From the NCBI GenBank assembly GCA_026692845.1, contig JAPLNM010000038.1:1-60047 (forward strand): a stretch of DNA of 60,047 bases. The letters run 5' to 3'. The translations under genes and the position numbers were made by a program. This stretch comes from Planctomycetota bacterium. Lineage in GTDB: Bacteria > Planctomycetota > Planctomycetia > Pirellulales > Pirellulaceae. Every line of letters begins with the position of its first letter. Positions within the stretch are counted from its first letter, which is position 1. This document shows positions 1,395 to 17,429 of this stretch, piece by piece. The notes under the pieces were generated by a model. The model worked only from the letters and a program-made list of their open reading frames with translations, was not told where the DNA came from and searched no databases.

Positions 1395-2438
1395 AGAAAA
1401 CGAGTGCTCCCAGTCCTCGGGATGCAATTTGAAAATGCATCTCCAGCCCTTTCTATCGTCGGTGAGCTCAATTGGCTCGCCCTCGATGTCAAAGAACTGT
1501 TGAAGCGACTTGTTAAGTAATTCTCGCTGCTTGCGATTCTTTCGGCAGGCGTCAGGAGAAAGCCAGGTCATCATGCCATGTTCTCTTGCAAACTTTAGGA
1601 GTAGCTCCCACTGTTTGCTTGGCTTACCACTTCGCGAATCAACCAAGCCAAGTTGAGAGTACGTCAACACTTGCCGCTGGTCGCGGATGGTTACGCTGAT
1701 CTTCTCGGTGTCGCTAAATCGCATCTCGACATCGCTCCAGCGGCTACCACTGGGAGTTGGGAATCGACCAGTCACGGTTTTTGCCGGTGGCATCAGTCGA
1801 TCGCGGAACGCAACCAATTGCTGACGCGCCCATGGCGACAGGCACCACTCGCCATCGCTGAACAACAATGATTGAGCGAGCGGAACCACAAGAGTGCCTC
1901 TCGAGTCCAACATTGTCTCGTTGCGACTACTTAGAATCCGTTTGGATGTGAGAAACAAAACGAACGGTCGCTGAAACTCTGCCAAGAACGCATCGATGCA
2001 CCAATCAAGCCGGCGAGGATCGCTGACTTTGGCCAGGAACAACGAGAACCCAGATCCATTGGGATTCCCGTAGTGGCCAAGCCTGTATCGATACAGCGGG
2101 CCTCCGAGCCGTTCGAATGCCACTTCAAAGCCGACTAGCGAAGCAATCTCTCCGGCCAACTTGCTGAAGCTGAACTCGTAGCAAACGATGTCGCGGCGAT
2201 CGACGGGCACGTACTCCTCGGTCTTCTCGTTGTAGCCTTCGAAGTTACCATCCTCGACCTCGACAATTTCCAACCACTCGTACGGACGATTGGGAACTGG
2301 CAGCGCCGCTGCCAAGTCTTTGATCGGCACGAGGAAATCACAGTGCAAATCAAAAGCATCGCCGAGCATCAGCCGCCAACTCAAGTGCGATGTCGCCACA
2401 TCATTAAGCTGCTCAAGTGCTTGCCAGGGCTGGCTCAT
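1356..2438 (-). CDS. Hypothetical protein with the island-repeated C-terminal domain
   Basis: A 360-residue protein. ATG 2438 (MSQPWQALEQ) is chosen because AAGGAGG lies 8 nt upstream. Residues about 1-240 are an uncharacterised acidic region with no motif I can name. Residues about 245-350 (from RWSDVEMRF to GWRCIFKL) are clearly similar to the last 105 residues of the 666-aa protein at 15429-17429. Shared landmarks are W-S-x-V, KQW-(E/D)-LL, FAR, GEPI and KGW. The gene overlaps the end of the upstream 395-aa gene by 26 nt, so the two are probably translated together. The shared domain suggests it binds the same partner as the 666-aa protein; that is inference. Function unknown. Confidence 0.75.
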   Translation of the reverse strand: MSQPWQALEQLNDVATSHLSWRLMLGDAFDLHCDFLVPIKDLAAALPVPNRPYEWLEIVEVEDGNFEGYNEKTEEYVPVDRRDIVCYEFSFSKLAGEIASLVGFEVAFERLGGPLYRYRLGHYGNPNGSGFSLFLAKVSDPRRLDWCIDAFLAEFQRPFVLFLTSKRILSSRNETMLDSRGTLVVPLAQSLLFSDGEWCLSPWARQQLVAFRDRLMPPAKTVTGRFPTPSGSRWSDVEMRFSDTEKISVTIRDQRQVLTYSQLGLVDSRSGKPSKQWELLLKFAREHGMMTWLSPDACRKNRKQRELLNKSLQQFFDIEGEPIELTDDRKGWRCIFKLHPEDWEHSFSSANQPNRQQDEW

Positions 2439-3600
2439 GGCGAGTCCTCCTTGGTACTTGCTTCGAGATGATGAATCCACGCTGAGTGAGCCAATCTTCG
2501 ATTGTTGCGGATACTCGCCCACGGCTGTAAATGGCAACATTTGGAGGGCGGACTGTGATTGCCAATTCGGTCTTGCGTCCCTCAAGTTCCATCTTGAACG
2601 TTGCGGAGATCAAACGCCTTTCAAGGCGAATGTTTTTCTTCTTTGCTTGTGCCCAATCCAGCAGGTCCTCACCTTTGCGAATGGTTATCACACCGTAACG
2701 ATCATCTGGATCACCAAGCCACAGCTCGATCATTCGAACATCGGTAACGCCCTCGATACCACCGGGTGCCAGCGCATCGAATTCAAACTCGCGTAGTGGA
2801 TCAAGGGTGTATTTGATACCGGTTGGAAACAGGTTCTCGTTACCAAACATGTGCTTGCCCAAGAGCCGGCAATACAAAGCTTTCTCCTTGCCGGTCTTGG
2901 CATTGATCCGCAATTCCCCAAACTCGCGGTTGTAGATCGCTGACGCGCTCTGTACTGGCCAGAAGGACTGAAATCCAAATCGACCGTTCTCCACGATTCG
3001 CTGGCGTCGAAAGAGGCTACCGTGCATGATGGAGAATTCGACTTCATCGGCGTTCTCGAAAATCTCAACCCTCGTCCCTTGAGCGCGGAAACGCTCCACG
3101 TGCCAAGAGTCAATGTCGCGTTCCAACTGCTGAAGCGTTTCCTCTGCGGGAGTCACGAACTTTGGAGCAGTGGTTTGACTCGCTTGGAAATAATCGTACG
3201 AGCGAACTCTTTTGATACGCGAGAGTGCGTGTGTTTGGACAAGCTTCTCGGGATTGGACAACCAAGCCGCTGTGACGATATCTGCTGCTGAATGCTTACC
3301 ACCGGGCTGGATTCCCAATGAGTGAGCAGGTATACGATCGAGCAACAACTCGATCGCGACGGTGTTGGCTAGTTCATCGATAAGGCAAATCGCGTCCAGC
3401 AAGTCCGCTGGCGCTTCTCGATCTGCTTTGGTGATCTCACGTATGACCGCTTGGCAATCAATCTGATCAGGTGTTTCGATCGGAACGGACCGATTCGCAA
3501 AGAAATCGGCATAGGGGTGGAGTAGCTCGAACAGTCGCTTGGGATCGATCGATTCAATAACACCGGGGCGCGATAAACGCGGAAGTCGAACAGCGGTCAT
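2413..3600 (-). CDS. Hypothetical protein, coupled to the following gene
   Basis: A 395-residue soluble protein; ATG 3600 (MTAVRLPRLSRPGV) is preferred, with AAGG 8 nt upstream. I recognise no domain. The first 180 residues look helical and acidic. The second half (about 190-395) alternates short strands and charged turns and contains a hydrophilic core (LYCRLLGKHMFGNENLFPTG). No membrane segment or signal peptide is visible. Its end overlaps the start of the 360-aa gene by 26 nt, a sign of translational coupling, and the two form a separate small operon. A 375-nt non-coding gap with long inverted repeats separates it from the methyltransferase gene upstream. It is probably an accessory part of the same island. 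Confidence 0.7.
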   Translation of the reverse strand: MTAVRLPRLSRPGVIESIDPKRLFELLHPYADFFANRSVPIETPDQIDCQAVIREITKADREAPADLLDAICLIDELANTVAIELLLDRIPAHSLGIQPGGKHSAADIVTAAWLSNPEKLVQTHALSRIKRVRSYDYFQASQTTAPKFVTPAEETLQQLERDIDSWHVERFRAQGTRVEIFENADEVEFSIMHGSLFRRQRIVENGRFGFQSFWPVQSASAIYNREFGELRINAKTGKEKALYCRLLGKHMFGNENLFPTGIKYTLDPLREFEFDALAPGGIEGVTDVRMIELWLGDPDDRYGVITIRKGEDLLDWAQAKKKNIRLERRLISATFKMELEGRKTELAITVRPPNVAIYSRGRVSATIEDWLTQRGFIISKQVPRRTRHEPALAST

Positions 3601-3975
3601 GATGTAAACCTTGAAAATCAATACTTCATAGCAATCCTTCATTGATCAAAACGTCAAGCGATCCAACCGACTGACGCAAACAAAATGCGATTGGCAGTGG
3701 CTAGCCTACGGCTTCCACCGTGCAAAACTCCTAGCGCGGGCATCCCATCCGCCAGTCCATGACCGTTGTCCTATGTGATTCCATCCAGGCCAAGCCACTG
3801 CCAATCGCGAATGCTATCATCCCGATGGCTGTGACACGTTAGGTCACAGCCCGGAAGAATTCTTTGGAAAAGAAAAAATACCGGCCCGATTTGAGCGAAG
3901 CCGCACATAACCGCGTGGCAATCAAACTCGCGAGCGTGCGCTTCGAGAAAGGTCTTGCGACGGCAAGACTGATCG
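3601..3975. other. Non-coding gap with long inverted repeats
   Basis: No gene is visible here. It holds a roughly 122-bp element bounded by perfect 16-bp inverted repeats (3687-3702 and 3793-3808) and a second hairpin with 9-bp arms (GGCTGTGAC 3827-3835, GTCACAGCC 3843-3851). The promoter of the 395/360-aa operon must lie in this stretch. Confidence 0.6.
3687..3808. repeat. Inverted-repeat element of about 122 bp (MITE-like or small-RNA hairpin)
   Basis: Arms GCGATTGGCAGTGGCT (3687-3702) and AGCCACTGCCAATCGC (3793-3808) are perfectly complementary over 16 bp. The stem extends by 3 more pairs after a small bulge. The 90-nt interior can form a further short stem (AGCC-TAC-GGCT). No clear target-site duplication flanks it, and it lacks the GTTRRRY/RYYYAAC ends of an integron attC site. 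It may be a small non-autonomous mobile element or a structured RNA. Confidence 0.45.
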
Positions 3976-5061
3976 CTAATCTACGAGCATGATGGAATTT
4001 GAAAGCAAAAACGACTTGAGTGCATCAAGGGTAATATAGGGTGCGCAGGTACCGCCGTAGAGTGATGAAAATCTGTCCCATCTGCTTAGAATTCTAGCGC
4101 GGACCTTCTCTGCTATTGCTAGATTTTCACACTCAAGCGCAATTACACAGTCAGACAATACGATGGTTTGTGCGCAGTCGTAAATCGCACATTTCTTCGT
4201 TGCTGGTGATCCAACACGTGTGAGCAAAACTGCTGGACCACGAACCGCTCGCGTATCAATCTTCACTGATCGCTGATACTGGTTAACTTCAGTATCCACG
4301 ATATCAGTGCTGTGGATGAAAGGGAACCTGCGTCCGGCTAGACCATTTTCGGCTCTGTAAACGGGTACGCACCCCCGAACTACTTTCACGAAAAGATGAT
4401 CTTCGCCACGCCGACGAACTTGTTGGCAATCAATATTGGGAGTGGTCTGTACACTGTTGGCGAGTCGACGGAATCGAACAACTACAGTGGAAGCCGAGCA
4501 GTCAGGAAACGTATTATTCGAGTATCTTCCGATCTCATAGTAGTTTGCAACTCTCTGAATCTCTTCGAGAATCTTGGCATCCTTCCGGCTACTCAAACAC
4601 GATGCGGGAAGTATCGCGACAATTTCTCCTCCGGTCCGCAAAAACTTGATTGCTGTGAAAATGAAAGCCATGGCACGACTACAGGTGACTTGGCCAGATT
4701 CGGTATTGACTGACAAAGCTCTGCCACCGCGACCACTGAAAGGCGGATTCAGCAATACTACATCGCACTTCCCCAACAACTCTCTAAATCTTTTAGAGGC
4801 ATTCGTAGAACGATCGTTCAAAAAATCGCAACTTGAATAGGCTGAAATTCGTTCATCTGTCGCTAACTTTGATGAACATGCGAAATCTATATCATTGCCA
4901 AAAGTGAAGCAATCTGGCCATCGCGAACGTGCTGCGACTAGCAGATCGCCATGACCAGCGGCAAAGTCAGCTACAATCTCAACTTTCCGTACCCTGACAG
5001 CGTTAATTGCTGCTGTTGCCAGTTCCATCGGCGTGAAAAATTGGTCCTTCATCCGTGGCAT
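3976..5061 (-). CDS. N6-adenine DNA methyltransferase (Rossmann-type)
   Basis: A 361-residue class I SAM-dependent methyltransferase. The SAM-binding motif I is VADFAAGHGDLL near residues 30-41 and the catalytic motif IV is NPPF at 105-108, which is typical of enzymes methylating the exocyclic amino group of adenine. The N-terminal KDQFFTPMELA resembles the start of many type I and type IIG M domains. The region after about residue 210 may be target recognition. The gene overlaps the preceding 310-aa gene by 13 nt. An internal ATG at 5052 would make a neat ATGA overlap and may be the true start. It is the last gene of the seven-gene unit. It could mark self DNA for the ATPase module or be the modification partner of an unseen nuclease activity. 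Confidence 0.85.
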   Translation of the reverse strand: MPRMKDQFFTPMELATAAINAVRVRKVEIVADFAAGHGDLLVAARSRWPDCFTFGNDIDFACSSKLATDERISAYSSCDFLNDRSTNASKRFRELLGKCDVVLLNPPFSGRGGRALSVNTESGQVTCSRAMAFIFTAIKFLRTGGEIVAILPASCLSSRKDAKILEEIQRVANYYEIGRYSNNTFPDCSASTVVVRFRRLANSVQTTPNIDCQQVRRRGEDHLFVKVVRGCVPVYRAENGLAGRRFPFIHSTDIVDTEVNQYQRSVKIDTRAVRGPAVLLTRVGSPATKKCAIYDCAQTIVLSDCVIALECENLAIAEKVRARILSRWDRFSSLYGGTCAPYITLDALKSFLLSNSIMLVD

Positions 5062-5981
5062 ACCAATTGTGTTACTTCGTAAACATGGAGACGTTTGATT
5101 CCTTCTGTTCGCTCTGCCTTCCGAACCGGATGATCGTATACGATCTCGACTTGTTCAGGATACTGCAATGCAGAGATGACCGCTGCCAGCGATTGAGGCT
5201 TTGTTCCTATAGGTGCAAGCGCGATACTCCGATTCTTGTGCTCATAACGTAATTGGTTGATGACATTTAAGGTAGCAAACGGACAGCTTGCGGGAGCAAA
5301 GATTACTTTTCTCCATGCCTGGCTCTCTCTCAATGCGGTACGATTTGCCCAGTAAGTTATGAATGGGAATTCGGCACGAAATCCTGGAACACCAACTATT
5401 GGAAAAATCAGTTGTCCAGAAGGTTCAAGCTGATTTATCAAGTATTGAAGGCGGGTCCCTTCAAATCCAAGCAGCGGAGCAAAGACACCTGCATTACGGT
5501 CACGCCGGAATCGGGCGAAACCGGGGAGCGGACGAATGCCTTCGATCTTTTCGCTGAGATCATAGATGACATTCTGAGTTGGCCGGGGATTCATTCGATA
5601 GTCATCTGGCTCAACATAAACCACTCGTACTCTTTTTCCGTCCGTATTCTTCAATCCTCGAAGCAACGCTGCCCAAGTGCTGTGCCGCAATCCGGTAATA
5701 TCGAGATATAGAACCTTAGACTCTACCGCTTGCCAAAAAGCCGTCAGCTGTGACAAGCTTCGCAACTGAATGACGCCACCCGCTCCTGAGAACTCAATCT
5801 CATCCGCAGCCTCCCGCAGTACACGGTAGAACTGAACATTGCGGCATCCATGCTCCCATTGTTCACCATGTCTACTCCGCTTCTCAACCGATACTCCAGC
5901 GACATACGCACTGCCTGGCTCGGGACAGAAGTCAGCTACGGACTCAAATGTTGTCGTTAGGGCGGCGGTGCTATCCATCAT
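5049..5981 (-). CDS. Uncharacterised protein of the PRTase/ATPase module
   Basis: A 310-residue protein without a recognised domain. The fold looks alpha/beta: hydrophobic strands (KVLYLDITGL, RVRVVYVEPDD, QLIFPIVGVPGF, SIALAPIGTKP, QVEIVYDHP) alternate with helices. The C-terminal stretch LAPIGTKPQSLAAV (about 254-267) recalls the GTK-containing loop of CARF-type nucleotide-sensing Rossmann domains, but the likeness is short and may be chance. It starts 11 nt inside the end of the ATPase gene and overlaps the methyltransferase gene by 13 nt, so all three are tightly coupled. By position it may be a sensor or effector that works with the ATPase and the phosphoribosyltransferase-like protein. 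Function unknown. Confidence 0.75.
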   Translation of the reverse strand: MMDSTAALTTTFESVADFCPEPGSAYVAGVSVEKRSRHGEQWEHGCRNVQFYRVLREAADEIEFSGAGGVIQLRSLSQLTAFWQAVESKVLYLDITGLRHSTWAALLRGLKNTDGKRVRVVYVEPDDYRMNPRPTQNVIYDLSEKIEGIRPLPGFARFRRDRNAGVFAPLLGFEGTRLQYLINQLEPSGQLIFPIVGVPGFRAEFPFITYWANRTALRESQAWRKVIFAPASCPFATLNVINQLRYEHKNRSIALAPIGTKPQSLAAVISALQYPEQVEIVYDHPVRKAERTEGIKRLHVYEVTQLVCHG

Positions 5982-7848
5982 TACCGTAAAACTGTGAAAA
6001 GAATGTCAATTGCCGGGGAAGTTCAGAAGACGTAGCACGCTTGTGCTCCCGAAGAATTCCACTAATTGTTTGCTTGGGACTTTCGATCAAAGCAAGCAAC
6101 GCACTGGAAGAGATTTCCATTTTGCGCTTCCGCCGAGGGCTGAACTCGAATAACGCGGCAAAGATCGGGTGGATTGTATAATCAAACTCGATGGTATCGG
6201 ATTCAGTCACTAACTTTGTCCCTTGAAACCGAACGAGAGCTAGGTGCATCACCGCCTGCTTGAGCAAATCGTCGAGTTCTGCGGTCATGCTCGTCAGATG
6301 GAACTGATTAAGCTCTGGCGCATGCCCAAATGGCTCAGCTGCAAACTGCTGAAAAATCCGGCCTAGCGCGAGCAGTAATTTTGTTAGCTTCGCGCCGCTG
6401 ACAGAAAGCCCTTCTAACTCTGAAAGATTCATTGCACCAACACTTTGAGCGGTCTTGGTTTGAACCTCAGGTGATATTGGAGACAGTAAATCGGAGCCGG
6501 ATCTGATATGTGCCATAAGACTGTGATCGACCAATTCAAGCATATAGCGTATGTTTCCGCAGGCCAGTTGAGCATACACATCGAGCCCACAATAGTACTT
6601 ATCCACTCCACGCTTGCGTTTCCGAATGGCAAAAAGAGCAGCGTACTTGTAGTTGTCGAACCTTTGCCTCCAAGAGGCAGGATTCGACTCCAGCTCGGTA
6701 ACCTCATCCTGCAAATTTCGCGAATGGCTCTTTGACCATTCGCTCAAGAAAAAGATCTCGAGGTTCGAGAGCTTTTCCAAAGTTGCGAGCGAACTCGCTG
6801 AAAGTTGACTTTCAGCGGCTTGCAATATTGAGCTGGCATGCTCCGCGACTCCGAGTAGATCAGCTTCTTCCTCGATACTTAGCGATGGTAACGCATGTCG
6901 AAGTCGAGAGTCGATTTGTTTGCCTTCAATTTTCACTTGCCGCAATCTGGTTTCGCAGACTTCTGTTGCGAAAGACAAGAATGACTCGCCGTTCATTTTG
7001 TCTCCAATTCTGACCAATGCGTAATCAGCAGGAGAAACCAATTGCTCGTTTGGCTGGAGCGTGGTTCTACACACCCATCCTAGCTCCTTCACCCCGATCT
7101 TGAAAAAGAACTGCCCAGTCGTGTGCTTGATGTAGGTATTCAATACTTGTTGTTGGTATGGCAGCAGATTTTCATACTCGTCGAGTAAGAAGAAGATGTG
7201 CTTGCCCCGAAACTGCTGACATGCCAGAACCGCATTACAAAGGAGTTCTACCGGCCTTTGCTGTAGCGACAGTTCGATCTTAGGATGATCTGCGATATTG
7301 TTTATCTCTGCCTCGAAAATTAGACGAGAGTCGATAATGCGATCATGCAGTTCCCGATGACTGTCCATTGCCGCAAGATGTAGAGACGTGCAAACTCTCG
7401 TTAACAGATTGCGATCGAGATCGACCTTTAATTCGTAGGTGTTTTCGTACCAGTCAACAAATTCCAGGAGAAGCTCGCATAGCAGAAGATTGGTATAGTG
7501 TGCGAATGCTGGTATCCACTGCTCCGCTGACCACCCAGCGCCCGTAAAAGCTGCTACATGATTTGTGTTTATTCGGTGGTATAACCCAATAAACTGTGGT
7601 TCCTGTCGTGCTGACGCATCAACCTTTTGTGACAATGCATACTGCCCTAGGTAGGAAAGTCCGCGAAGAACCGTGGTCTTTCCAGTTCCTCGCCCCCCGA
7701 CTAGCACGCACGATTGTCGTGTAGTCAATTCCGGGAAATACCGTGGTTCGGTATAGAGGTCAAAAACCTTTTCCTGTAGCCATTCCGCTCGGTAGCTTCC
7801 GAAAAGATCGCTGAGTTGTTTTTGAAGCTCCTCAGAATTTGAAGTCAT
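5971..7848 (-). CDS. ORC/CDC6-like AAA+ ATPase
   Basis: A 625-residue AAA+ type ATPase. Walker A is GGRGTGKTT at residues 51-59 and Walker B is HIFFLLDEYEN at 217-227, with the acidic pair intact. The long insertion between them and the helical C-terminal half (about 380-610) fit the large ORC/CDC6-like ATPases of prokaryotic conflict systems, which I recall being encoded beside phosphoribosyltransferase-like proteins. The end (about 560-600) may be a winged-helix-type DNA-binding part. Start ATG at 7848 overlaps the stop of the upstream gene as ATGA and has GAGGAGA just ahead. It probably acts as an NTP-driven switch or loader on nucleic acid. The base composition of this gene and its immediate neighbours seems more AT-rich than the helicase gene, suggesting a different origin. 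Confidence 0.8.
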   Translation of the reverse strand: MTSNSEELQKQLSDLFGSYRAEWLQEKVFDLYTEPRYFPELTTRQSCVLVGGRGTGKTTVLRGLSYLGQYALSQKVDASARQEPQFIGLYHRINTNHVAAFTGAGWSAEQWIPAFAHYTNLLLCELLLEFVDWYENTYELKVDLDRNLLTRVCTSLHLAAMDSHRELHDRIIDSRLIFEAEINNIADHPKIELSLQQRPVELLCNAVLACQQFRGKHIFFLLDEYENLLPYQQQVLNTYIKHTTGQFFFKIGVKELGWVCRTTLQPNEQLVSPADYALVRIGDKMNGESFLSFATEVCETRLRQVKIEGKQIDSRLRHALPSLSIEEEADLLGVAEHASSILQAAESQLSASSLATLEKLSNLEIFFLSEWSKSHSRNLQDEVTELESNPASWRQRFDNYKYAALFAIRKRKRGVDKYYCGLDVYAQLACGNIRYMLELVDHSLMAHIRSGSDLLSPISPEVQTKTAQSVGAMNLSELEGLSVSGAKLTKLLLALGRIFQQFAAEPFGHAPELNQFHLTSMTAELDDLLKQAVMHLALVRFQGTKLVTESDTIEFDYTIHPIFAALFEFSPRRKRKMEISSSALLALIESPKQTISGILREHKRATSSELPRQLTFFSQFYGNDG

Positions 7849-8768
7849 GTTCTCCTCATCAGTGGTTGCCAGCTGGATGATTCGTGGTAGTAGATAGGTA
7901 GGGTCGCATCTGGGATCCCGTGTTCGAACGCAATCCCAAGAGCCAAGTCATGGAAACCGCGCCAGCCTTCGTCGAGTCCCGCTCGCTTGCTCACATTCTC
8001 GAGAAACTTAGGTGCACTTTGAATTAGATCACTTGTCCAGAATCGCGATCTAGGAGATAGGGCACTGTAGCTTTCATCCAATTCGTGAGCAGGTACAAGC
8101 TGCACACTCGGCGCGAAACGCCTAATTTTGGCTCGCCCCTTCCAAGTACAGAAAATAGGGCAGTAAAAAGCCGTAAACGCTTGTTTGCCTTCTTCTGCTA
8201 TTCGTTTGAATGAGTAATGCGTGCCTGGCGCGATTGTCAGTGTCCTATCCCAAGTGTCGCAAAATTGGTTTCCAGATCCCACAAAGTCGTCTACGAAAAC
8301 AATGGTTTTACAATCGCCGAAAAATATCTTCTCTACCGCTTGTTCGTTCGTGAGTATTTGCCTCGCATCCAAGCCCAAGAATTGTCTTGAAAGTCGCGCG
8401 AAATGGTATCCACTATCCGTTGGGCTAGGATCCTCTCCCGTAACGTGAGTGATCGCGACATTGTGCAAAAACTCAAGCCATTGCTCATGCAATACCTCAT
8501 CCGCTTCACGAAAGTCACAATTGGCTGAAGCAAGTTTGTTGAACGCAAACCGAAATAGATGTTTTGTCAAATCGTTGGAATAATACATGAAGTTCATGAG
8601 CAAGCGTTCTGCGAAATTCCTCTCCTCCTCAGTGAAGTTCGATAGCCAGCCTGAGTAGTTCAGGTTTCGTTGCAAGGGCCACAATTGCGATTCGACTAAG
8701 AAATCGCATCTTTCGAGCAGTAGCTCGTGATGGGCCGACATTTGCTCGGGGCTGTTTGGTTCGTTCAA
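7845..8768 (-). CDS. Phosphoribosyltransferase-like protein (PRTase-CE type)
   Basis: A 307-residue protein. The segment IVFVDDFVGSGNQF (residues 156-169) is the PRPP-binding loop of type I phosphoribosyltransferases in a slightly altered form (VDDxxGSG in place of the usual VDDxxxTG). The helical region before it (about 1-140) replaces the usual hood. I recall a family of this shape, called PRTase-CE, found beside ORC/CDC6-like ATPases in prokaryotic immune gene clusters. The start is TTG at 8768, chosen because it overlaps the GIY-YIG stop codon as TTGA; the next gene overlaps its own stop as ATGA. It may make or hydrolyse a nucleotide signal, or modify a nucleotide pool. Substrate and reaction cannot be read from the sequence. 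Confidence 0.8.
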   Translation of the reverse strand: MNEPNSPEQMSAHHELLLERCDFLVESQLWPLQRNLNYSGWLSNFTEEERNFAERLLMNFMYYSNDLTKHLFRFAFNKLASANCDFREADEVLHEQWLEFLHNVAITHVTGEDPSPTDSGYHFARLSRQFLGLDARQILTNEQAVEKIFFGDCKTIVFVDDFVGSGNQFCDTWDRTLTIAPGTHYSFKRIAEEGKQAFTAFYCPIFCTWKGRAKIRRFAPSVQLVPAHELDESYSALSPRSRFWTSDLIQSAPKFLENVSKRAGLDEGWRGFHDLALGIAFEHGIPDATLPIYYHESSSWQPLMRRT

Positions 8769-10027
8769 GATGCGTTCCCCCGTCGCTTCATGCTCGCTGT
8801 TTCCATATCAAACACATAGTCGCTAATCGATCCATCCTTGATTCGCTCGACAACTTGTTCGACCACCTGCAGTGGAACAAGGAACCACTCGCGAGGTTGA
8901 ACCTTCCCGCCGAATCGATCGGCTAGCGCTAGGTCAATACGAGCGCGCGCGAGGAACTTGTGAAGCAGAGATTCAAACGCCTTGCAGTTGATGTTCGCTA
9001 ATCGGTAGACCGCCACCAACTCTACCGCGGCGAAGAGATACGTCGTTTCCTTCTTGGCGTTGGACACTCGCTTCTCGGGATCGCCAGTAGTCAGTCCGAT
9101 CTTATGGAGCAGTTCGCGGTTCTCTTGCACGAACGGATTATCGGAGAGGCTTCGAGCCACGTAGATCGCACCAGACTCGCAGTCGCCGTCCTCCATGACA
9201 TTGGAGAAGAGCGGGCCTAAGTCGCTAAAGTCTTCTTCAATCTCGGCTTGTTGCGGTACGATTCGCCGGCTGTTTTCGTCTTTGTTTAGCGCTCGTCGCA
9301 ATGAACGAAGTAACAAGTCTGACTCGGTACCATTGTCGAAGATGACTCGTAGGCGTCGATCTCGTTCGCCGTGTTCAGGAGTGAACCACTCACCTGTCTC
9401 TGCGACCAGTGCCTTCTGGCCATCCACGATGAACCAGTCGCCCTTGCGTATCTGAGATCGACTGCTGGTCTTGAACAACTCGGTCGATTGACGGCCGGTC
9501 TCAAGATCAGCCTGAACGGCTTCGAAGTCCAGCCGAAAAGCGTCAAAGTCTGCGCACGGCTTGCGCTGGGCAACCTCTTCTGGAACGTTCCGCTCGGCAT
9601 TCCGCTCGGCAGCCGAACGAACGTGTTTCATCGTCGTGATATCATTGTCTTCGGGGCTAACGCCGAGTGCTTCCAAGAGTTCATCGTCGCTGTCCAGCTC
9701 ATACTCTTCGGATGGCTCACTGACGCGATCTGTCAGTATTCCGTCAGCATCCATGGGCCTCAGAAGATCCAAGCACTCGGCATCGCCGCGAATTCGGTCT
9801 AGCCGAAGTGCGTACAAGCGTTCGAAGATATCTCGGCCTTCACCGTGCTGTGGAAGTCGTTCGTGCTCTCGATAGTACCGCTGAATGTCTTCGAACCCAG
9901 CGATGATCCGTTCTTGCTTGGCCGTGTAGGTCTGATCCTGCTTGATTTCGGTCTCAACACCAAGCTCAGCCAAAAGCGCATCATCGTCATCCGTAAATGC
10001 TGCTTCCTTCGTCTTCTTTTTAGCCAC
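8765..10027 (-). CDS. GIY-YIG nuclease (T5orf172/MUG113-like), R-M-like subunit
   Basis: A 420-residue protein starting at GTG 10027, 8 nt inside the helicase gene end. The C-terminal third (about 285-400) carries a GIY-YIG-type fold: GAIYV at 286-290, HKIGLTTG at 308-315, an arginine at 320 and the FESLLHKFLA helix with a glutamate at 352, in the arrangement of T5orf172-type nucleases. The N-terminal part has two copies of an acidic motif, DDDALLAELGV (about 14-24) and DDELLEALGV (about 114-123). A short module with RLPQHGEGRDIFERLYALR resembles one at the end of the helicase. It is probably the DNA-cleaving subunit that works with the helicase and the large methyltransferase. The linkage of these three genes is something I remember from many bacteria. 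Confidence 0.85.
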   Translation of the reverse strand: MAKKKTKEAAFTDDDDALLAELGVETEIKQDQTYTAKQERIIAGFEDIQRYYREHERLPQHGEGRDIFERLYALRLDRIRGDAECLDLLRPMDADGILTDRVSEPSEEYELDSDDELLEALGVSPEDNDITTMKHVRSAAERNAERNVPEEVAQRKPCADFDAFRLDFEAVQADLETGRQSTELFKTSSRSQIRKGDWFIVDGQKALVAETGEWFTPEHGERDRRLRVIFDNGTESDLLLRSLRRALNKDENSRRIVPQQAEIEEDFSDLGPLFSNVMEDGDCESGAIYVARSLSDNPFVQENRELLHKIGLTTGDPEKRVSNAKKETTYLFAAVELVAVYRLANINCKAFESLLHKFLARARIDLALADRFGGKVQPREWFLVPLQVVEQVVERIKDGSISDYVFDMETASMKRRGNAS

Positions 10028-12095
10028 TTGTTTTCTCCTGTTTCATTCGCGCCAGGAATGCGATTCCCTCCGCCATTCGCCGCTCCCACGCATCTTGGCT
10101 GGTGATCGAAGGCAAGCGTCCGCGTTCGTTCTTGAACTTCAAAGCGCGCTTCGCAAGATCGCGAGCCTCTTCGGGTGTCAGTTGAACTCGCCGGCCAGCG
10201 ATCGCTGACTGGACCTGTCGCAATCGCTCTTCGTTCATCGTCTTGGCGAGAATGTTGTACGCCTCGCCGAAGGGATTGATCGAGTCGATTAGGTCGACAT
10301 TCAAATCTCGAACATCGGTCACATAGCGGCGAATCCCGTCGATCAGCGCCGTGTTCGAAGTTGCACCACTGCCACTCGCTTTCTTGCCACCCATCTGAAT
10401 CAGGTTAAGGGCTGCAACGGCGCGCTGCCGAATGGCCTCTTGGTCTTGCTCAGACAAGTCGGGGTACTTGTCGCGAATGATCTTACCCATTCGCTGCTGA
10501 GTTGTTTCCTGAGGTGGAAGCTCGTCATTGAACAAGCCATCCTGGACGGTGCGAGTGTCTTGAACGAAGGAAGCCAAAACCTCGTTGAGGTCCTCACGGC
10601 AGATTCTGGTTGCTTCGTCACTCTCGGGTTCGATGAGCCCATTTATCTCAATCTGAACACCGCCAGTCGCAGGGTCCACGCCAACATTGCAACCACCATG
10701 ATCGTATCCGTCAGTTCCGTAGTCCAACCCAGGCTGAGGTCCGCTCGGAACGTTGGGGCCGTTCGGTACGTTAGCTGGCGTCTTTGGACGGAACTCGAAA
10801 CGAGGTGCGAGCACTTGTTCCATCAGCAAACTGGCTGCAATGGCTTTAAGCGTATCGTTGACCGCCTCGGTAACAGCTTGCTCACCTGCGTCCGGCTCGG
10901 CGATCAAGTTGGTAAATCTGGCTCTTGTTTTGCCAACAGCATCACGTGTCGCTCGACCGATGATTTGCACGATTTCAGTCAAGCTACTGCGGTAACCGAT
11001 GGTCAGAGCATGTTCGCACCAAATCCAATCGAAACCCTCTTTGGCCATCCCCAAGGCGATAATGATGTCCACGTGATCTCGATTTTCGCGACCTACCGGA
11101 TCACGGAGCGCGGCTGCAACCTTCTCGCGTTTGATCGGTTCGTCGTCAACGAGATCTGCAATTCGCAGAGTTCGTCCTGTCGATGTTTTCACAAGCTGAA
11201 AACCAGTAACGTCATCGGTGCCCAACCACTCACCTAATGTCTCGAGGATGTGCTCAACTTCTTTGTGCTTGTCTTGAGTGCTTTCGCGGCTGTTAACATT
11301 CGGGATGTGAATGATCGTCTTTTCGTTCTCGTCAAGAACCTTTGGCAGATCGTCAAGGTAGCTCCCAGAATAGAAGTAGTAGCCAATGTCCAACTGCTTA
11401 AGATGCTTATAGCCACTGAGCTGTTCGTAGTAGGTGTAGGTCACCGTCACAAACCGCCTCTCATCTTCCGGCATCAGCACGGCAGCAGCGTCGCCGCGGA
11501 AGTAGCTGCCCGTCATGGCGATCAAATGCGTCTTGTCGCGCTCGATCAATTGTCGCACGAATTCGCCTAGACGATTGTCGTCACTCACCGATACGTGGTG
11601 AAACTCGTCGACGGCAATAAGGCGATCATCAAAGGCTTCAACACCGAACCTTTCAAATGCAAAACGAAACGTGGCGTGAGTGCATACCAACAAGCGATCT
11701 TCGGAAGCCAGAAAACGCCCCAGTGCTTCAACCTTCCCACCGTCGGTACCAGGCGCGTTGCAAAGGTTCCATTGTGGAGCGACAGTCCAGTCGGTGAAGA
11801 AACCATCCTTGGCGAGCTGAGTGTTACCAAAGCTCGCACCAATCGACTTTTCAGGTACGACCACGATCACCTGCTTCAGGTTTTGGCGGTGCAACTTGTC
11901 GAGCGCAACGAACATGAGCGCTCGACTCTTGCCCGATGCTGGCGGTGACTTGAGTAGCAGATACTGCTCGCCACGAAACTGCCAGACGCGTTGCTGCATG
12001 GCACGCATACCCATCGCGTTCGATGTGATGGATTGGCCACTGCCCGCATAGCTGACGCTTACGCCGGGCATCGATTTTGGCTTTGGTTCACTCAT
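10020..12095 (-). CDS. SF2 DEAD/DEAH-type helicase, R-M-like subunit
   Basis: A 691-residue superfamily 2 helicase or translocase. Walker A is SPPASGKS at residues 50-57, the DEAD-box variant is DEFH at 163-166, motif III-like MTGSY follows near 194, and motif VI-like QIIGRATR lies near 387. The C-terminal 250 residues are helical and end in a module (RLPSITSQDAWERRMAEGI) that resembles one in the adjacent GIY-YIG protein. ATG 12095 has AAGGA 10 nt upstream. The gene follows the large methyltransferase after 90 nt and overlaps the nuclease gene by 8 nt. It likely moves along DNA after recognition by the methyltransferase subunit and brings in the nuclease; this mechanism is inferred from type I and type III relatives. 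Confidence 0.9.
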   Translation of the reverse strand: MSEPKPKSMPGVSVSYAGSGQSITSNAMGMRAMQQRVWQFRGEQYLLLKSPPASGKSRALMFVALDKLHRQNLKQVIVVVPEKSIGASFGNTQLAKDGFFTDWTVAPQWNLCNAPGTDGGKVEALGRFLASEDRLLVCTHATFRFAFERFGVEAFDDRLIAVDEFHHVSVSDDNRLGEFVRQLIERDKTHLIAMTGSYFRGDAAAVLMPEDERRFVTVTYTYYEQLSGYKHLKQLDIGYYFYSGSYLDDLPKVLDENEKTIIHIPNVNSRESTQDKHKEVEHILETLGEWLGTDDVTGFQLVKTSTGRTLRIADLVDDEPIKREKVAAALRDPVGRENRDHVDIIIALGMAKEGFDWIWCEHALTIGYRSSLTEIVQIIGRATRDAVGKTRARFTNLIAEPDAGEQAVTEAVNDTLKAIAASLLMEQVLAPRFEFRPKTPANVPNGPNVPSGPQPGLDYGTDGYDHGGCNVGVDPATGGVQIEINGLIEPESDEATRICREDLNEVLASFVQDTRTVQDGLFNDELPPQETTQQRMGKIIRDKYPDLSEQDQEAIRQRAVAALNLIQMGGKKASGSGATSNTALIDGIRRYVTDVRDLNVDLIDSINPFGEAYNILAKTMNEERLRQVQSAIAGRRVQLTPEEARDLAKRALKFKNERGRLPSITSQDAWERRMAEGIAFLARMKQEKTSG

Positions 12096-12185
12096 GGGGT
12101 ATTCGTCCTTGATGGCAGTCTGGCAATGTGTAAGACGGAACTGTCAAGGATTTCTTGACGGTTGTATTGTTGAAGAAGTGAACGC

Positions 12186-14978
12186 TCATTTCTTGCCTTT
12201 CTCCTTTGACGTCATCTCGGTATAGAGTTGGAAGAGCGTCTCGAGTCGTTCCGTATCGTTCTTGAAGCGGCGGCCGATGTAGATGCGTTCCAGTACTTCG
12301 TCGTTACGATCGTGTGCGGCGCGCAGATCGTCAGGCATCGTCTCCGAATCGTAGAGCTCCGCGATCGTCGCAGGCCAATGGGCTTCGCGTGTTAGCAGGA
12401 TATCTTCAGCGCATCGGGTCAGATCAGTTTTGTTTTCGTCGGTGAGAGGAGGGACCGGAAAAGTGTTCCATCCAAGGGTGTTCGAGTATGAGAAATCCGT
12501 GCGCATCCGAACACAAACTGTGGCTATCCATGACCGGTGCAGCCGTGAACTTATTATTGCAACACACCACAACTGAGGCGTGTACGCGGCATAGTTCCTG
12601 TCAGTAACAATGGTGTTTGCGCTAATCAGTCCAGTTGGCAGATACTGTCGATTTTCGGAACTGACTCGCGGAACTACTATCGCGTACGGATTGGGTACAT
12701 TCATTTCCCGAAATTGATGAGGCTTCTTCGACATGTTCGCCATTCCGGGGTCTACGCTTCTTGTTCGGAAATCCCTGACGTGCGCAATGCGTTTCTCAAT
12801 CGCAGGATTTTCAAGAGCTTCGCTCAAGTCATCATCAGTAAGCCAAAGGCAATAGCGCATTTTGCCTTGGATGAACTCAGTAGAGCCCAATGCAATTTTG
12901 GTAAATCTAGACAATTCCGTATTGGTAAGGCCAAGCTTTCCTCTGTCATCGCGAGACAGTAGCAAGCCTCCGTCATCTTTGGGTACATTTCCAAGCGTTA
13001 GCTTAGGTAAGCCTGATATTGAAGATGTTCTTGGCATGACGATTACGGTTGGTCCCGCCGTTAAGTATGGCGTGATGTTATCAACCTGGCGAGTAATCTC
13101 GTCGTCGAAAAGGGTCTTTGCCGATCTTTCGTCTTTCTTGCATAGCCCGATAATAACACATGTAACCCCTGCTTTATTTGCCGCTAGGTTCGACCATGTG
13201 AATGATGTAAATGCAAAGCAGATATCCACTTCGTCCATCACTAATGCCCAAAACCTCGGCACATGTTGCCCTTGCACAAGTGAATTAGTGGATACGAATG
13301 CGCAGGCGGCATTGGTCGTTTTTAGGAACCCACACGCTTTGAAGAAGAATCCACAGATGTAGTCCAGCGATTTCCATGCGGATGTCACGCGTCCAAGAAC
13401 TTCCTTGATATCCGCCTTCTGCAATTTGTTTTGTTTCTTGTCTCCAACGTAAGGCGGATTGCCACAGATGTATGTTTCGCCCCCTTCGTTCTCAAAATCG
13501 ATCTCTATCTGATCCAGTGGCGTCTGAAACAAATCATTCTCAACGAGCTTTACACCCGTACCCGTTGGCGGACATACCTTCAGCCAGTCCAATCGCAAGG
13601 CATTGCCATGGGTGATCCAATTCTCTTTGTTGAGCGGTAGAAACTCTGCAAGTGCCAAGCGTTGGCCGCGGTATAGTTCATCGCACTGGTACTCGGCAAT
13701 GATTAGTGCCAAACGAGCAATCTCGACAGCGAAGTGCCTCAGCTCAATTCCGCGAAAGTTGGTAAGCGGAATTTCCGAGGCCCTATCCGGCTCTCCCCGC
13801 AGGATATTGATCTCGGCTTCAATCTTGCGCATCTCTTTGTACGCGATGACTAGAAAATTTCCGCTACCGCAAGCCGGATCGAAGACGCGAATGCGAGCCA
13901 AGCGCTTTCGAAGATTGAGCAACTTTCGAGGGTTCTTGCCTGCTTCCTTCAATTGCGCATGCAAGTCATCAAGGAACAGCGGATTCAGTACCTTTAAGAT
14001 GTTCGGGACACTCGTGTAGTGCATGCCCAACGCACCACGCTCCTCGTCGTCGGCAACAGCTTGAATCATCGAACCAAAGATGTCGGGATTGATCTGTGTC
14101 CAATCGAGCGAGCCAATGTGCAACAGATAGGACCGAGCGATCTGCGTGAACTTTGGAACCGTGCCTCGCTCGGACGTTGAGCCGTTACTTCCAAACAATC
14201 CTCCGTTGACGTACGGGAACTGGCCCGCCCATGGACGCAGCTTGGCCGTGTCGCGTGCCTTCGTCGGCACATCCATAGCGCGGAAGACCTCGGCAAGAAC
14301 AAAGTCCGTGTTCTCGCCGCTCGGATCGCTCATCTGGCGAACTGTCTCGGTGAAGAGCGCGTTCCCGTTGAAGATCCCGGTATCTTCCGCGAAGAAGCAA
14401 AAGATCAATCTCGCGAAGAAATGGTTGAGCTCTTCCCGCCGCTCGTCCCCGTCCCAGTCCGGATTATTGCGCAGCAGTTCGACGTACAAGCGATTCAGTC
14501 GCCCAGTGGCCTTGATATCGAAGGCGTTCTCGCGGATCTGCCGTACGGTCGAGATCCCCGCGAGCTCGAGGAAGTAACCAAAGTGGTCAGCCAGTTCCTT
14601 GAACTCGCACACCAATGGCGGCTCTTCCGAATTCAGGCACTCCGCGTGAACCGTATTCCCATCCGTTGCCAGCGCAAACTTCGCTTTGTGTTTGCTCGAT
14701 GCAGAACTATCCACCAAACGCTTAAGTAGTCGAGCGACAGCGTCGGGGCCACCCGCAGAGCATGTGGCGATGTGAATGTTGTTCCGCTGAAGTACGGCAT
14801 GAATTCCGTCACCTGCCACGTCCGTCTTGTTCGTCGAGTTCTTTCCGACGCTACGTAGTCGCTGAAGAGTCGCAGTCTTATTGCCGAACGCCTCCAAGAA
14901 AGCGTACGAGAACTCGGCCGCGTTGAACGGCTCTTCGACCAGCTTACTGACTGCTTCTTCGATCTCGACTGCGTTCAA
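12186..14978 (-). CDS. MmeI-like class I SAM-dependent DNA methyltransferase (recognition and modification subunit)
   Basis: A 930-residue protein. Order of parts: an N-terminal region (1-160) of unknown fold; a helical spacer (about 165-330) containing NHFFARLIFCFFAEDTGIF and the conserved GMHYTS at 319-324; a methyltransferase core with VFDPACGSGNFLV (365-377) and NPPY (507-510); then a target-recognition and C-terminal region (about 600-925). This is the layout of MmeI-family enzymes. The N-terminus does not show the clear PD-(D/E)xK nuclease site of MmeI, so cleavage is probably supplied by the GIY-YIG partner. The start is TTG 14978 with GGAG 8 nt upstream; no in-frame ATG fits. It heads the seven-gene unit and faces the XRE regulator across 118 nt. 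Confidence 0.9.
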   Translation of the reverse strand: MNAVEIEEAVSKLVEEPFNAAEFSYAFLEAFGNKTATLQRLRSVGKNSTNKTDVAGDGIHAVLQRNNIHIATCSAGGPDAVARLLKRLVDSSASSKHKAKFALATDGNTVHAECLNSEEPPLVCEFKELADHFGYFLELAGISTVRQIRENAFDIKATGRLNRLYVELLRNNPDWDGDERREELNHFFARLIFCFFAEDTGIFNGNALFTETVRQMSDPSGENTDFVLAEVFRAMDVPTKARDTAKLRPWAGQFPYVNGGLFGSNGSTSERGTVPKFTQIARSYLLHIGSLDWTQINPDIFGSMIQAVADDEERGALGMHYTSVPNILKVLNPLFLDDLHAQLKEAGKNPRKLLNLRKRLARIRVFDPACGSGNFLVIAYKEMRKIEAEINILRGEPDRASEIPLTNFRGIELRHFAVEIARLALIIAEYQCDELYRGQRLALAEFLPLNKENWITHGNALRLDWLKVCPPTGTGVKLVENDLFQTPLDQIEIDFENEGGETYICGNPPYVGDKKQNKLQKADIKEVLGRVTSAWKSLDYICGFFFKACGFLKTTNAACAFVSTNSLVQGQHVPRFWALVMDEVDICFAFTSFTWSNLAANKAGVTCVIIGLCKKDERSAKTLFDDEITRQVDNITPYLTAGPTVIVMPRTSSISGLPKLTLGNVPKDDGGLLLSRDDRGKLGLTNTELSRFTKIALGSTEFIQGKMRYCLWLTDDDLSEALENPAIEKRIAHVRDFRTRSVDPGMANMSKKPHQFREMNVPNPYAIVVPRVSSENRQYLPTGLISANTIVTDRNYAAYTPQLWCVAIISSRLHRSWIATVCVRMRTDFSYSNTLGWNTFPVPPLTDENKTDLTRCAEDILLTREAHWPATIAELYDSETMPDDLRAAHDRNDEVLERIYIGRRFKNDTERLETLFQLYTEMTSKEKGKK

Positions 14979-15096
14979 CCGATCGCTCCATCAATTGGGT
15001 GATTGTGAGAAATGTCCTCCTAGCATGGCCACATGTTGCCTGCAAGCTGCTACAATCCTACAATGCTAGCCTCACTGGAACAAGCAGGGATTGAAG
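14979..15096. promoter_or_regulatory. Divergent control region of the defence operon and the XRE regulator
   Basis: A good sigma70-type promoter reads rightward: TTGCCT at 15036-15041, a 17-nt spacer and TACAAT at 15059-15064. An inverted repeat, CTAGCAT (15020-15026) and ATGCTAG (15063-15069), brackets it, and its right half overlaps the -10 box. This is a plausible operator for the XRE protein, which would then control both its own gene and the leftward operon. No convincing leftward promoter was found by eye. Confidence 0.5.
15036..15064 (+). promoter_or_regulatory. Predicted sigma70-type promoter of the XRE regulator gene
   Basis: TTGCCT, 17 nt, TACAAT; transcription would start near 15071, about 26 nt before the ATG at 15097. 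The -10 box also overlaps an ATGCTAG half-site, which suggests autorepression. Confidence 0.5.
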
Positions 15097-15432
15097 ATGG
15101 ACAAGTTCGGCGACCGAATTCGTGAACTCCGCAAAGCAAAAGGCTATTCCCTCCGCCAACTGGCTCCGTTGGTCGGCGTCGGGTTTTCGTATCTGAGCAA
15201 AGTCGAGAACGACAAACTCGACTTCGAGGGCACGGCGTCCGAGTCGCTGATCCACCGCCTTGCGGACGTACTGGAGGCGGACGAAGAGGAGCTATTGCTG
15301 CTCGCCCACCACGTCCCCAAGCGCATTGCTGACCGGATTCTTGAACAGCCAGAAGTGTTCCGAACCCTTGCATCACTAGATGCTGAGGAGCTTGAGCGAT
15401 TCGCGAGCCGACATACGAGAGTGCCTAGATGA
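15097..15432 (+). CDS. XRE-family helix-turn-helix transcriptional regulator
   Basis: A 111-residue protein with a Cro/C1-type HTH at about residues 5-65: RIRELRKAKGYSLRQLAPLVG, shown here as RIRELRKAKG then YSLRQLAPLVG, followed by SYLSKVEND. The remaining 45 residues are a short acidic and helical tail. ATG 15097 has AGGGA about 7 nt upstream; a TTG at 15091 would sit too close to it. The gene is divergent from the methyltransferase-led operon and overlaps the 666-aa gene by 4 nt (ATGA). Regulators of this kind, placed like controller proteins of R-M systems, delay nuclease expression until DNA is methylated. That role fits here but is inferred. Confidence 0.85.
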   Translation: MDKFGDRIRELRKAKGYSLRQLAPLVGVGFSYLSKVENDKLDFEGTASESLIHRLADVLEADEEELLLLAHHVPKRIADRILEQPEVFRTLASLDAEELERFASRHTRVPR

Positions 15433-17429
15433 GTGACGTCGCCGCTGCTACTTACTTTTTCTTGACCGTACGCTCTGATGCATCAAGCCCGCCATCGGTG
15501 TTTTATTACGCTGACGATGAATGGATGGCCATCGAGCTTTGTAAGCTGTTCAAGTCTGAGTTTGGGCAGTTTTGTGATCACGAGTTTTCCCACATGGTAG
15601 TCAGTGGGGACGATACGACTCAGCTTGTGCGACTTCGTACTGCCGTCGACGAGGTGTCACTATACCAAGATCCAGATCCAGGTATTTACGATCCCGAACC
15701 GACACAGGAATTACTACAACTAGCCAACTATTACTCGCGTGCGACCCAGTGGGAATCACTGCTTGAGAGCTTGCGAAAGCAAGAACCAAAAGAATCTCGA
15801 ACGAATGGTCCAAAACAAGGTGCGGCTACCGCGACCGGTGAACTTGAGATCCAATCGCTCGAGCGTGTTCGATCCTTGCTTGAGAAGCATCGATTAATGT
15901 TTCTCTATTTTGCTGTACCCAAACAGATCAATCCGCTAGCGACGGGAAACAAGTGGCAGCTAGATAGCCTAAAGCCCGATCAATTTCCAAAGTTCAAAAG
16001 TGATGAAATTGATGATGACGGGGAGTTTCTCTTCACTTACCGACGGCGACTCGAACAGTTCGTTCAAACGTGCTATAGCAAGTTTGGAAGCGGTGCCGGA
16101 AGCAAGCCACGGGTGCTAACAGAAGACTGTACCATAGTGGATGTTGAAGGTGGTTCACTACCAGCCTGGTACCTTGACGATGGTGCCTGTGTCTACCTTG
16201 ATGAGTCTGCGGAACAGATTCTTGCGAGCATGCGCGATGCCGTACGTAAAGGGCAAAGTCGACTGCTCCAGCCATTTATCAAGGCCATTAAGGACGCTCT
16301 GCACGACCAAGGTAAGTCCAAGTGGTATGCGTCCGAGCCAGTTCGATGGGAGTATGTGTCTCGCCTGGATTCAATCCTGCATGAATTGAGGACGTTCGAG
16401 CTAGAACAACCGAGCATGAATAAGGCTGCAACCGCAGAGGAGGTTAAAGATCCCACGCTGGACGACGCTGCAGGTTCGCCTGATGTCAGCGCTGAAGATT
16501 TGCTCAAGGGAATCCCCGAGGAGGACGATCGCAACTCTGGATTGATTCTTCTGATGTTATTTGCTCAGGCATATTACAAGATGCTTGAAGCAACAACTTC
16601 CCTGTCTGATTGGCTGACGGCAATGGACCTGGGGCTCAATCATTCCTACATATGGACCGTTCAAAACCTGACCAACTTACTCAAAAACAATAAGCATCTA
16701 AGCGACTTCCCAGAAAAGTTCGAACCCATGTTCGACGATCTATATCCAACAACAATCACTGATGTCGATTGGCAGTGGATGGTAGCGCCTCATGCTGATG
16801 GGTTCCTGGCCACGGTTCAGCGATATGTGCTTAAAAAGGGGACATACGATCCCGAAGAAGGCTCACCGGCTTGGATCATGGTGCAACTTTTCCGGCCCGG
16901 AGTGGAGACAGCGATTGAACGGGCCGAGAATTACAATCGACGTCTTCGCAAAGCGCAGAAAGCCATGTTTGGTGAGACGACAAGTACGAAGCCGCACGAC
17001 GCCGCCGTCAAGGCAGATAGCGACGTTGCGAAGGCTGAAGAGTCGCAACAAACGACTACCAATGTAAATACTCAGATTGCCATCCCTCCAGGGGCTAAAT
17101 GGTCAGAAGTCGCAATAAGATTCTTGGACGCCCACAATGTGCAAGTCACATTTCGAGAGCAAAGTCAGCGATTCCACTTTACACAAATGAACATGGCGGA
17201 CGGTCGCTCCAACCTGAAACCGACAAAGCAGTGGGATCTACTTTACTCATTCGCTCGCGATAACGGGGTGATCAACTGGGGGAGCAAAAGTGCCTCACCC
17301 AAGCTGAAGAAGCAGAAGCAAGAGCTTAGTGAAAAACTATCCTCGCTATTTGCCATCGTCGGGGAGCCAATCGTTTACTTGGATGAGGTAAAAGGCTGGA
17401 AGACAGTATTCCAGATTATGGACTCGTGA
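15429..17429 (+). CDS. Uncharacterised 666-aa protein with the island-repeated C-terminal domain
   Basis: The ATG at 15429 overlaps the stop of the regulator gene as ATGA, so the two are coupled. The first 560 residues are soluble, acidic and helix-rich with no motif I can name; residues about 310-365 look like a low-complexity linker, and a second linker (about 515-555) precedes the last domain. Residues about 560-666 match the C-terminal domain of the 360-aa protein at 1356-2438 along the whole length (W-S-E-V, KQWDLLYSFAR, GEPI, KGW). No signal peptide, membrane segment, nucleotide-binding loop or nuclease motif is visible. It is probably an accessory or effector component of the island. 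Its stop lies 3 nt from the convergent HTH gene. Confidence 0.75.
   Translation: MSDVAAATYFFLTVRSDASSPPSVFYYADDEWMAIELCKLFKSEFGQFCDHEFSHMVVSGDDTTQLVRLRTAVDEVSLYQDPDPGIYDPEPTQELLQLANYYSRATQWESLLESLRKQEPKESRTNGPKQGAATATGELEIQSLERVRSLLEKHRLMFLYFAVPKQINPLATGNKWQLDSLKPDQFPKFKSDEIDDDGEFLFTYRRRLEQFVQTCYSKFGSGAGSKPRVLTEDCTIVDVEGGSLPAWYLDDGACVYLDESAEQILASMRDAVRKGQSRLLQPFIKAIKDALHDQGKSKWYASEPVRWEYVSRLDSILHELRTFELEQPSMNKAATAEEVKDPTLDDAAGSPDVSAEDLLKGIPEEDDRNSGLILLMLFAQAYYKMLEATTSLSDWLTAMDLGLNHSYIWTVQNLTNLLKNNKHLSDFPEKFEPMFDDLYPTTITDVDWQWMVAPHADGFLATVQRYVLKKGTYDPEEGSPAWIMVQLFRPGVETAIERAENYNRRLRKAQKAMFGETTSTKPHDAAVKADSDVAKAEESQQTTTNVNTQIAIPPGAKWSEVAIRFLDAHNVQVTFREQSQRFHFTQMNMADGRSNLKPTKQWDLLYSFARDNGVINWGSKSASPKLKKQKQELSEKLSSLFAIVGEPIVYLDEVKGWKTVFQIMDS

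Follow-up and report, generated by a model that had tools for sequence, protein, structure and literature searches.

DnmA homologues are described in excerpts of PMC9973331 as lying in synteny with genes for a helicase and a T5orf172/GIY-YIG protein, as in the B. subtilis yeeABC cluster. According to these excerpts, no defence against phages was seen for the trio in B. subtilis, and cited work on V. crassostreae found that deletion of the homologues led to a higher sensitivity to some phages. We analyzed a stretch of 60,047 nucleotides (nt) of a Planctomycetota bacterium, referred to here as the window (GenBank assembly GCA_026692845.1, contig JAPLNM010000038.1, positions 1 to 60,047). On its minus strand, between positions 3976 and 14978, lie seven genes, g1 to g7. 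The first three encode the same three protein types as DnmA-YeeB-YeeC, in the same order, and the other four encode a phosphoribosyltransferase (PRTase), an ORC-CDC6-like ATPase, a CARF6 protein and a DNA methyltransferase. Comparison with other loci makes us highly confident that g1-g3 (cassette A) and g4-g7 (cassette B) are two independent cassettes. Cassette B would most likely be a methylation-marked, ligand-gated defence module with a nucleotide-acting enzyme.

Relationship between the trio and the four genes behind it

The trio starts with g1 (12186-14978, 930 amino acids), a predicted DnmA-type N6-methyltransferase that contains all five MmeI domains in Pfam (N, helical, methyltransferase, target-recognition and C) and matches the PADLOC type IIG model with 5e-272. 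It is followed by g2 (10020-12095, 691 amino acids), a YeeB-like DEAD/ResIII helicase according to Pfam, and by g3 (8765-10027, 420 amino acids), a YeeC-like predicted nuclease that matches T5orf172 and MUG113 in Pfam and has its T5orf172/GIY-YIG part at the C-terminal end. This is the DnmA-YeeB-YeeC definition, namely an MmeI-like methyltransferase, then a superfamily 2 helicase, then a T5orf172/GIY-YIG gene. A preliminary description of this DNA, made from its letters alone, had taken these genes for a recurring trio of the restriction-modification type, and both the trio loci on plasmids and the published DnmA synteny agree with it.

Loci taken from plasmids, viral contigs and genome contigs were searched with profiles of g1-g7; these loci form a sample and not a census. 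Trio genes were found beside the ORC and CARF6 genes in none of 23 other loci, and g4-g6 lay beside the trio in none of nine other trio loci (L059, L060, L083-L089). The ORC+CARF6 set numbers 24 loci with the window included. It excludes L076 as a near copy of the window, L070, L072 and L073 (ORC-like gene, no CARF6 by profile), and L144 and L145 (CARF6-like gene present, ORC match under the cut-off). Furthermore, the window's own assembly holds a second copy of the trio on contig 168 (L059, 4118-14124), with blocks of 78-87% DNA identity. The similarity between the two copies ends within the joint of the cassettes (8742-8775, minus strand), at position 8775, ten bases short of the end of g3. 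Directly after the last stop codon of the second copy, genes for DUF4062 and PDC-M41A-like proteins follow, with a DUF5131 gene on the opposite strand. This copy has a RhuM gene between its first and second trio genes and a helicase split into two frames; contig 168 could be a contaminant (contamination of the assembly is 1.16%). The single coupled system of seven genes that had been proposed did not hold up against these counts and the second trio copy, and we reject it as a general rule. Indeed, the neighborhood pattern named in the preliminary description as speaking against such a system is largely the one we found: the neighbors of the four-gene part vary, be it on plasmids, viral contigs or genome contigs.

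The trio is widespread on plasmids, and foreign genes occur within or after it there as well. Plasmid records matched by g2 and g3 number 264 and 223, respectively, and seven records among these matches were opened. As annotated, an ATP-binding protein and hypothetical genes (L083), a hypothetical gene (L084) or toxin-antitoxin genes (L087) lie between methyltransferase and helicase. The methyltransferases themselves differ in one region. Between the window and L076 (859-3660), g1 is 95-98% identical over residues 1-517, 42-45% over residues 518-845 and 84% beyond; between the window and L059 (11413-14124), the values are 94-95% for residues 1-517 and 39-43% for residues 518-845. Residues 518-845 contain the target-recognition domain by the Pfam limits. 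It seems, then, that the target-recognition region was swapped between near-identical trios, an apparent exchange of DNA specificity.

The alignment of g1 to the MmeI structure 5hr4 begins at residue 127. The g1 of the window has one ExK motif, EFK at residue 125, as do L059 and L076, and the first 150 residues of L060 and L084-L087 are without one, so that no ExK is conserved in the g1 N-terminus among the trio relatives. The exact place of the restriction endonuclease motif in MmeI-type proteins is assumed here. Since no ExK is conserved, cutting is probably left to g3 and not to g1.

All seven open reading frames point leftward and are tightly packed, as first described. A 90-nt gap separates g1 and g2, and overlaps of 8 nt (g2/g3), 4 nt (g3/g4, TTGA), 4 nt (g4/g5, ATGA), 11 nt (g5/g6) and 13 nt (g6/g7) follow. 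The genes are separate adjacent frames, not fused ones as the heading of the preliminary description could be read. The ATGA junction stands, and the TTGA junction is doubtful, because it may stem from the choice of the g4 start: the nearest relative outside the lineage (L007, 53% identical) aligns from the ATG at 8741 and not from the TTG. The ATG at 8741 is the more likely start, and g3 and g4 would then be separated by 23 nt. No minus-strand promoter-like or terminator-like site was detected at the joint; in the region, such sites are no more frequent than in shuffled sequence. A search of positions 1-20000 against Rfam gave no match. Both cassettes are probably read as one transcript, and shared transcription could still couple them within the window's lineage.

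An assembly join at 8765-8768, which had been raised as a possible objection, is rejected. The viral-collection contig L076 aligns to window positions 1-12492 in a single blastn alignment (93.5% identity, 32 gap openings) that crosses the joint, and to 13434-15372 with 91.3% identity. It has seven open frames in the order of g1-g7, and g2-g7 are 97-100% identical between the two. L076 is a close relative; the arrangement is real, and a separate second origin is not implied.

The four-gene module and its exchangeable slots

A CARF6 gene directly follows the ORC gene on the same strand in all 24 loci, and the core of the module, as judged from these gene orders, is ORC then CARF6. The PRTase gene is present in 17 of the 24. 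Across the 14 loci that hold all four genes (L078, with a split PRTase, was omitted), the gene-distance matrices correlate with r between 0.66 and 0.90; for each of the six gene pairs, none of 2000 permutations gave a value as high. The module is found in various surroundings. Plasmid records matched by g6 number 149, 128 of them from Klebsiella, and six were opened; on a K. quasipneumoniae plasmid (L011) the order is methyltransferase, PRTase, ORC, CARF6. Further loci lie on viral-collection contigs (L077-L081), in an Acinetobacter record and on genome contigs. Within the phylum of the window, the CARF6 model matched five of 294 sampled genomes, and ORC-CDC6-like was over its cut-off in 14 of 392. 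A scan of genome contigs with g6 (53 stretches) gave no relative, and one with g5 gave a single locus, L007.

The product of g6 (5049-5981, 310 amino acids) was initially left as unknown. It has no Pfam match; PADLOC assigns it to CARF6 (PDLC01913, E-value 1.2e-103, residues 4-307). Against the PDB, a profile of 16 g6 relatives found six chains up to an E-value of 10. Both of those below 0.001 are Card1 (4e-4), and the others are two Csm6 chains, one DUF1887 protein, which we take to be a CARF nuclease, and one unrelated design. The CARF6 alignment was too diverse to serve as a search query. In the predicted structure (pLDDT 79, pTM 0.86) the protein has two Rossmann-like halves, with a conserved DITG motif in the first and GTKP in the second, and its single chain may form a pseudo-dimer. 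No effector domain was detected in g6. CARF proteins normally read nucleotide signals, and from the CARF6 matches we infer that g6 binds a nucleotide-type ligand. This identity strengthens the nucleotide-signalling character that had been suggested for the four-gene part.

The suggested identities of g4 and g5 were confirmed far above the curated cut-offs, which are 27 for both families. The PRTase g4 (7845-8768, 307 amino acids) matches PF24390 (PRTase-CE) with 6e-49 and 167.6 bits. It carries the loop VDDFVGSG, and S119, G120, D160 and D161 are invariant across 11 sequences, D160 and D161 in keeping with a phosphoribosyl pyrophosphate-type loop. The ATPase g5 (5971-7848, 625 amino acids) matches PF24389 (ORC-CDC6-like) with 4e-138 and 462 bits. 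It has a Walker A motif GGRGTGKTT and a Walker B motif LLDEYEN, whose residues G51, G56, K57, T58 and D223 are invariant across 12 sequences. A fold search with g5 gave two matches below 0.001, both archaeal Orc1/Cdc6 structures with DNA and of low TM score, and further low-TM matches to eukaryotic ORC, RdrA and clamp loaders. On this structural model, DNA loading by g5 is plausible. The last gene, g7 (3976-5061, 361 amino acids), encodes a predicted N6-adenine DNA methyltransferase (PF02384, N6_Mtase, 5e-8) with an NPPF motif. Its C-terminal region, in which HSTD, RVG and SDCV are conserved across an alignment of nine relatives, looks by eye like a target-recognition domain. The cluster thus has two different DNA methyltransferases, as proposed, one MmeI-type (g1) and one N6_Mtase (g7). 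Family searches found no other effector domain in g5-g7, and by domain content cassette B is without a recognisable nuclease.

The slot directly before the ORC gene is exchangeable. It holds PRTase-CE, HD-CE (L065) or a phosphoesterase-like gene (L063) that has a calcineurin-associated winged helix-turn-helix domain and weakly matches the DS-9 phosphoesterase. A survey of HD-CE gave 47 of 382 over the cut-off, of which L065 and L148 alone were used. In L069 a kinase-like region, under the Pfam cut-off, is fused to ORC, and in L070 (8808-11333) a Metallophos domain is fused to an ORC-CDC6-like part, with no CARF6 found at that locus. PADLOC contains a CARF6--CARF_STK_AAA model, so a kinase-ATPase fusion was already known to its authors. 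The methyltransferase is exchangeable as well. Of the 24 loci, 20 have a DNA methyltransferase, and four Pfam classes are represented: 15 loci carry the g7 type, L012 (partial match), L064 and L066 carry PF01555, L063 carries PF02086 and L065 carries PF00145. The g7-type gene follows CARF6 in the same direction in eight loci and on the opposite strand in two, and it precedes the PRTase in five. This distribution fits a module that needs some self-marking enzyme, whatever its class.

The neighbors of the PRTase point to nucleotide or ribosyl chemistry, without giving its direction. A dUTPase_2 gene lies directly before the PRTase in three loci from different hosts (L008, 8486-9151; L062, 12084-12671; L082, 7377-8015), a position it takes in none of the other loci that were searched. 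L015 and L092 represent the L062 place again. Outside the module, PRTase-CE adjoins a NADAR gene in L140, and in L139 (5452-10888) it lies between HsdM and a frame that carries NADAR and HsdS specificity domains. L145 has a PRTase, a weak ORC match, a CARF6 gene, PfkB and NADAR. PRTase-CE is also fused to WD40 repeats (L141, 8057-12124) or to an HD domain (L142, 7805-10654). NADAR is described in excerpts of PMC9503650 as a ribosyl N-glycosidase that acts on ADP-ribose derivatives.

In the surroundings of the cluster, a serine recombinase and a DUF2924 gene lie at 17849-19947, perhaps as part of an integrated element. The frames at 1356-2585 and 15429-17429 have no Pfam match over the cut-off and by eye seem to share a C-terminal stretch. 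In the self-comparison, the end of the window (59738-59980) showed a short tandem repeat whose unit recurs about every 33 bases.

Proposed mechanism and competing explanations

In cassette A, g1 would methylate host DNA at its site, g2 would translocate and g3 would cut. In cassette B, g7 would mark self DNA, and the ORC-like ATPase g5 would assemble on unmarked or replicating foreign DNA. Binding of a nucleotide-type ligand by the CARF6 protein g6 would license g5, which would then switch on the enzyme encoded just upstream, here the PRTase g4, and this enzyme would alter a nucleotide or ribosyl metabolite, stopping the infection. We favor g4 as the effector because enzymes that degrade nucleotides can occupy the same slot. 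Taken as a whole, this account of two mobile defence cassettes placed end to end, mechanisms included, has in our view a little less than an even chance of being right, and the mechanism of cassette B is more tentative still. Doubtful is the wider proposal of a nuclease-free, methylation-gated immunity in which an ORC-CARF core acts without Cas10, responds to an undescribed ribosyl-nucleotide ligand and accepts pluggable enzymes and methyltransferases.

Several observations weigh against this account. The flanks of the compared loci are limited and unequal, and some contigs are short; the permutations ignore kinship of hosts or loci. In four of the 24 loci no methyltransferase is seen: a transposase interrupts L067, and contig ends cut off L068, L069 and L071. 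The PRTase profile gave weak PDB matches only (best E-value 0.18), the g5 profile found no relative there (best E-value 0.2), and the predicted structure of g5 is of no more than fair quality (pTM 0.46). For g6, the fold search supports CARF in part, with a Csm6 probability of up to 1.00 at a TM score of only about 0.3. The top g6 match by E-value was KaiC; its TM score is about 0.2 over about 350 columns, and it was set aside as the fold of g6. Finally, the host has type III-B genes, and the ligand of g6 could come from Cas10.

The main competitor of an effector role for g4, although we consider it rather unlikely, makes g4 the source of the signal: ORC would activate the PRTase, CARF6 would sense a ribosylated nucleotide and another part would do the harm. 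The usual role of CARF proteins as readers of nucleotide signals, the conserved active-site residues of the PRTase and its dUTPase and NADAR neighbors, which suggest ribosyl-nucleotide chemistry, all agree with this, but the HD-CE and phosphoesterase-like genes found in the same slot are enzyme types that usually degrade nucleotides, and g5-g7 offer no other effector domain. Less probable is that cassette B serves as a type III CRISPR accessory in which CARF6 reads cyclic oligoadenylate made by the host's Cas10. PADLOC files these PRTases as PRTase_III-A, and the assembly of the window has two Cas10/Cmr2 genes with a GGDD motif, so cyclic oligoadenylate may exist in the cell. A host without a cyclase is ruled out by these two type III-B genes, which were found with the Cmr2 model; matches of the Csm1 model in the window's own genome, the only one searched with it, were all under the cut-off. 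The expectation of a Cas10 gene on the window's contig (38) failed, since the genes lie on contigs 22 (L075) and 182 (L074). At an E-value of 0.001, four of the 11 genomes with ORC+CARF6 had a Cmr2 match, compared with 18 of 149 in the background (p 0.047), but over the curated cut-off the numbers are two of 11 against nine of 149, this genome included (p 0.17). Moreover, related modules are plasmid-borne, mostly in Klebsiella, and among 5426 E. coli genomes, four have the Klebsiella-type ORC gene on plasmids. The names of all four mark them as derivatives of C600 or J53, which are not known to carry type III CRISPR. A dependence of the module on Cas10 is unlikely in general, though it could exist in this host. 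The two type III-B CRISPR loci of the assembly are L074 and L075; a 931-amino-acid ORF of L074 (645-3440) resembles by eye a reverse transcriptase-Cas1 protein, and ORFs nearby have ITGGTK motifs.

Slightly less probable again is that the seven genes are one coupled unit in this lineage, with cutting by cassette A feeding or triggering cassette B. The tight spacing, the joint without a minus-strand promoter-like site and the like arrangement of L076 would suit such coupling, as would the modules behind type I HsdR genes (L062, L065) and the PRTase-CE gene among Hsd genes in L139; but the two gene sets were never found together in the other loci examined, the second trio copy is followed by other genes, and L076 is too close a relative to count as independent. 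The least probable reading is a relic, in which cassette B or the trio is inactive and methylation alone is retained, as excerpts of PMC9973331 propose for DnmA of B. subtilis. The missing phage defence of that trio and the broken copies elsewhere (L012, L059, L067, L078, L088, L089) point in this direction, but all seven frames are open in the window and in L076, and g4 and g5 retain the motif residues that were checked.

Comparison with known systems

The families of cassette B are known individually. The CARF6 family of PADLOC covers g6 and its scanned relatives, and g4 and g5 fall into the Pfam set of PRTase-CE, ORC-CDC6-like and HD-CE; Pfam names families, not the gene set. A survey of conflict systems is said to be the source of these Pfam families, and surveys of conflict systems and of CARF proteins reportedly list parts of the g4-g7 set. 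MADS likewise combines a methyltransferase with an ATPase, and in PADLOC g7 matches mad2 (1e-12) and g5 matches mad8 (4e-4). However, g7 reaches only 25.3 bits against the NCBIfam MAD2 model, whose cut-off is 720, and no other MADS part in PADLOC matched g4-g6. In outline, cassette B may also be likened to DS-8 of DefensePredictor, a metallophosphatase and a NACHT part, neither of which is dispensable for defence in E. coli (excerpts of PMC13092281), as both would place a nucleotide-type enzyme under the control of a P-loop NTPase. Unlike cassette B, DS-8 is a single metallophosphatase-NACHT protein, and the excerpts describe no PRTase, CARF or methyltransferase; the comparison is an analogy without demonstrated homology. 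Our literature search, whose coverage left out the key CARF and conflict-system surveys, found no experimental study of the g4-g7 module, and the excerpts of PMC12839542, PMC4012209, PMC12669027 and PMC8195603 contain nothing on this gene set. The DnmA-YeeB-YeeC cluster covers g1-g3 only, and as far as the excerpts of its publication go, it is without PRTase, ORC and CARF6.

Should the mechanism proposed for cassette B hold, CARF sensing would extend beyond CRISPR signalling, and self-marking by methylation could be coupled to a metabolic stop rather than to DNA cutting. The ORC-CARF6 core would then be portable, the methyltransferase would act as its immunity gene, and the ligand could be identified by mass spectrometry. 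As for the trio, this known cluster is followed by different cargo at its two places in a single assembly, and near-identical copies of it seem to have swapped their target-recognition region. The families (Pfam, PADLOC) and the DnmA-YeeB-YeeC trio were already known, and what this locus and its relatives add is the fixed ORC-CARF6 core, its exchangeable slots and the adjacency of the module to the trio.

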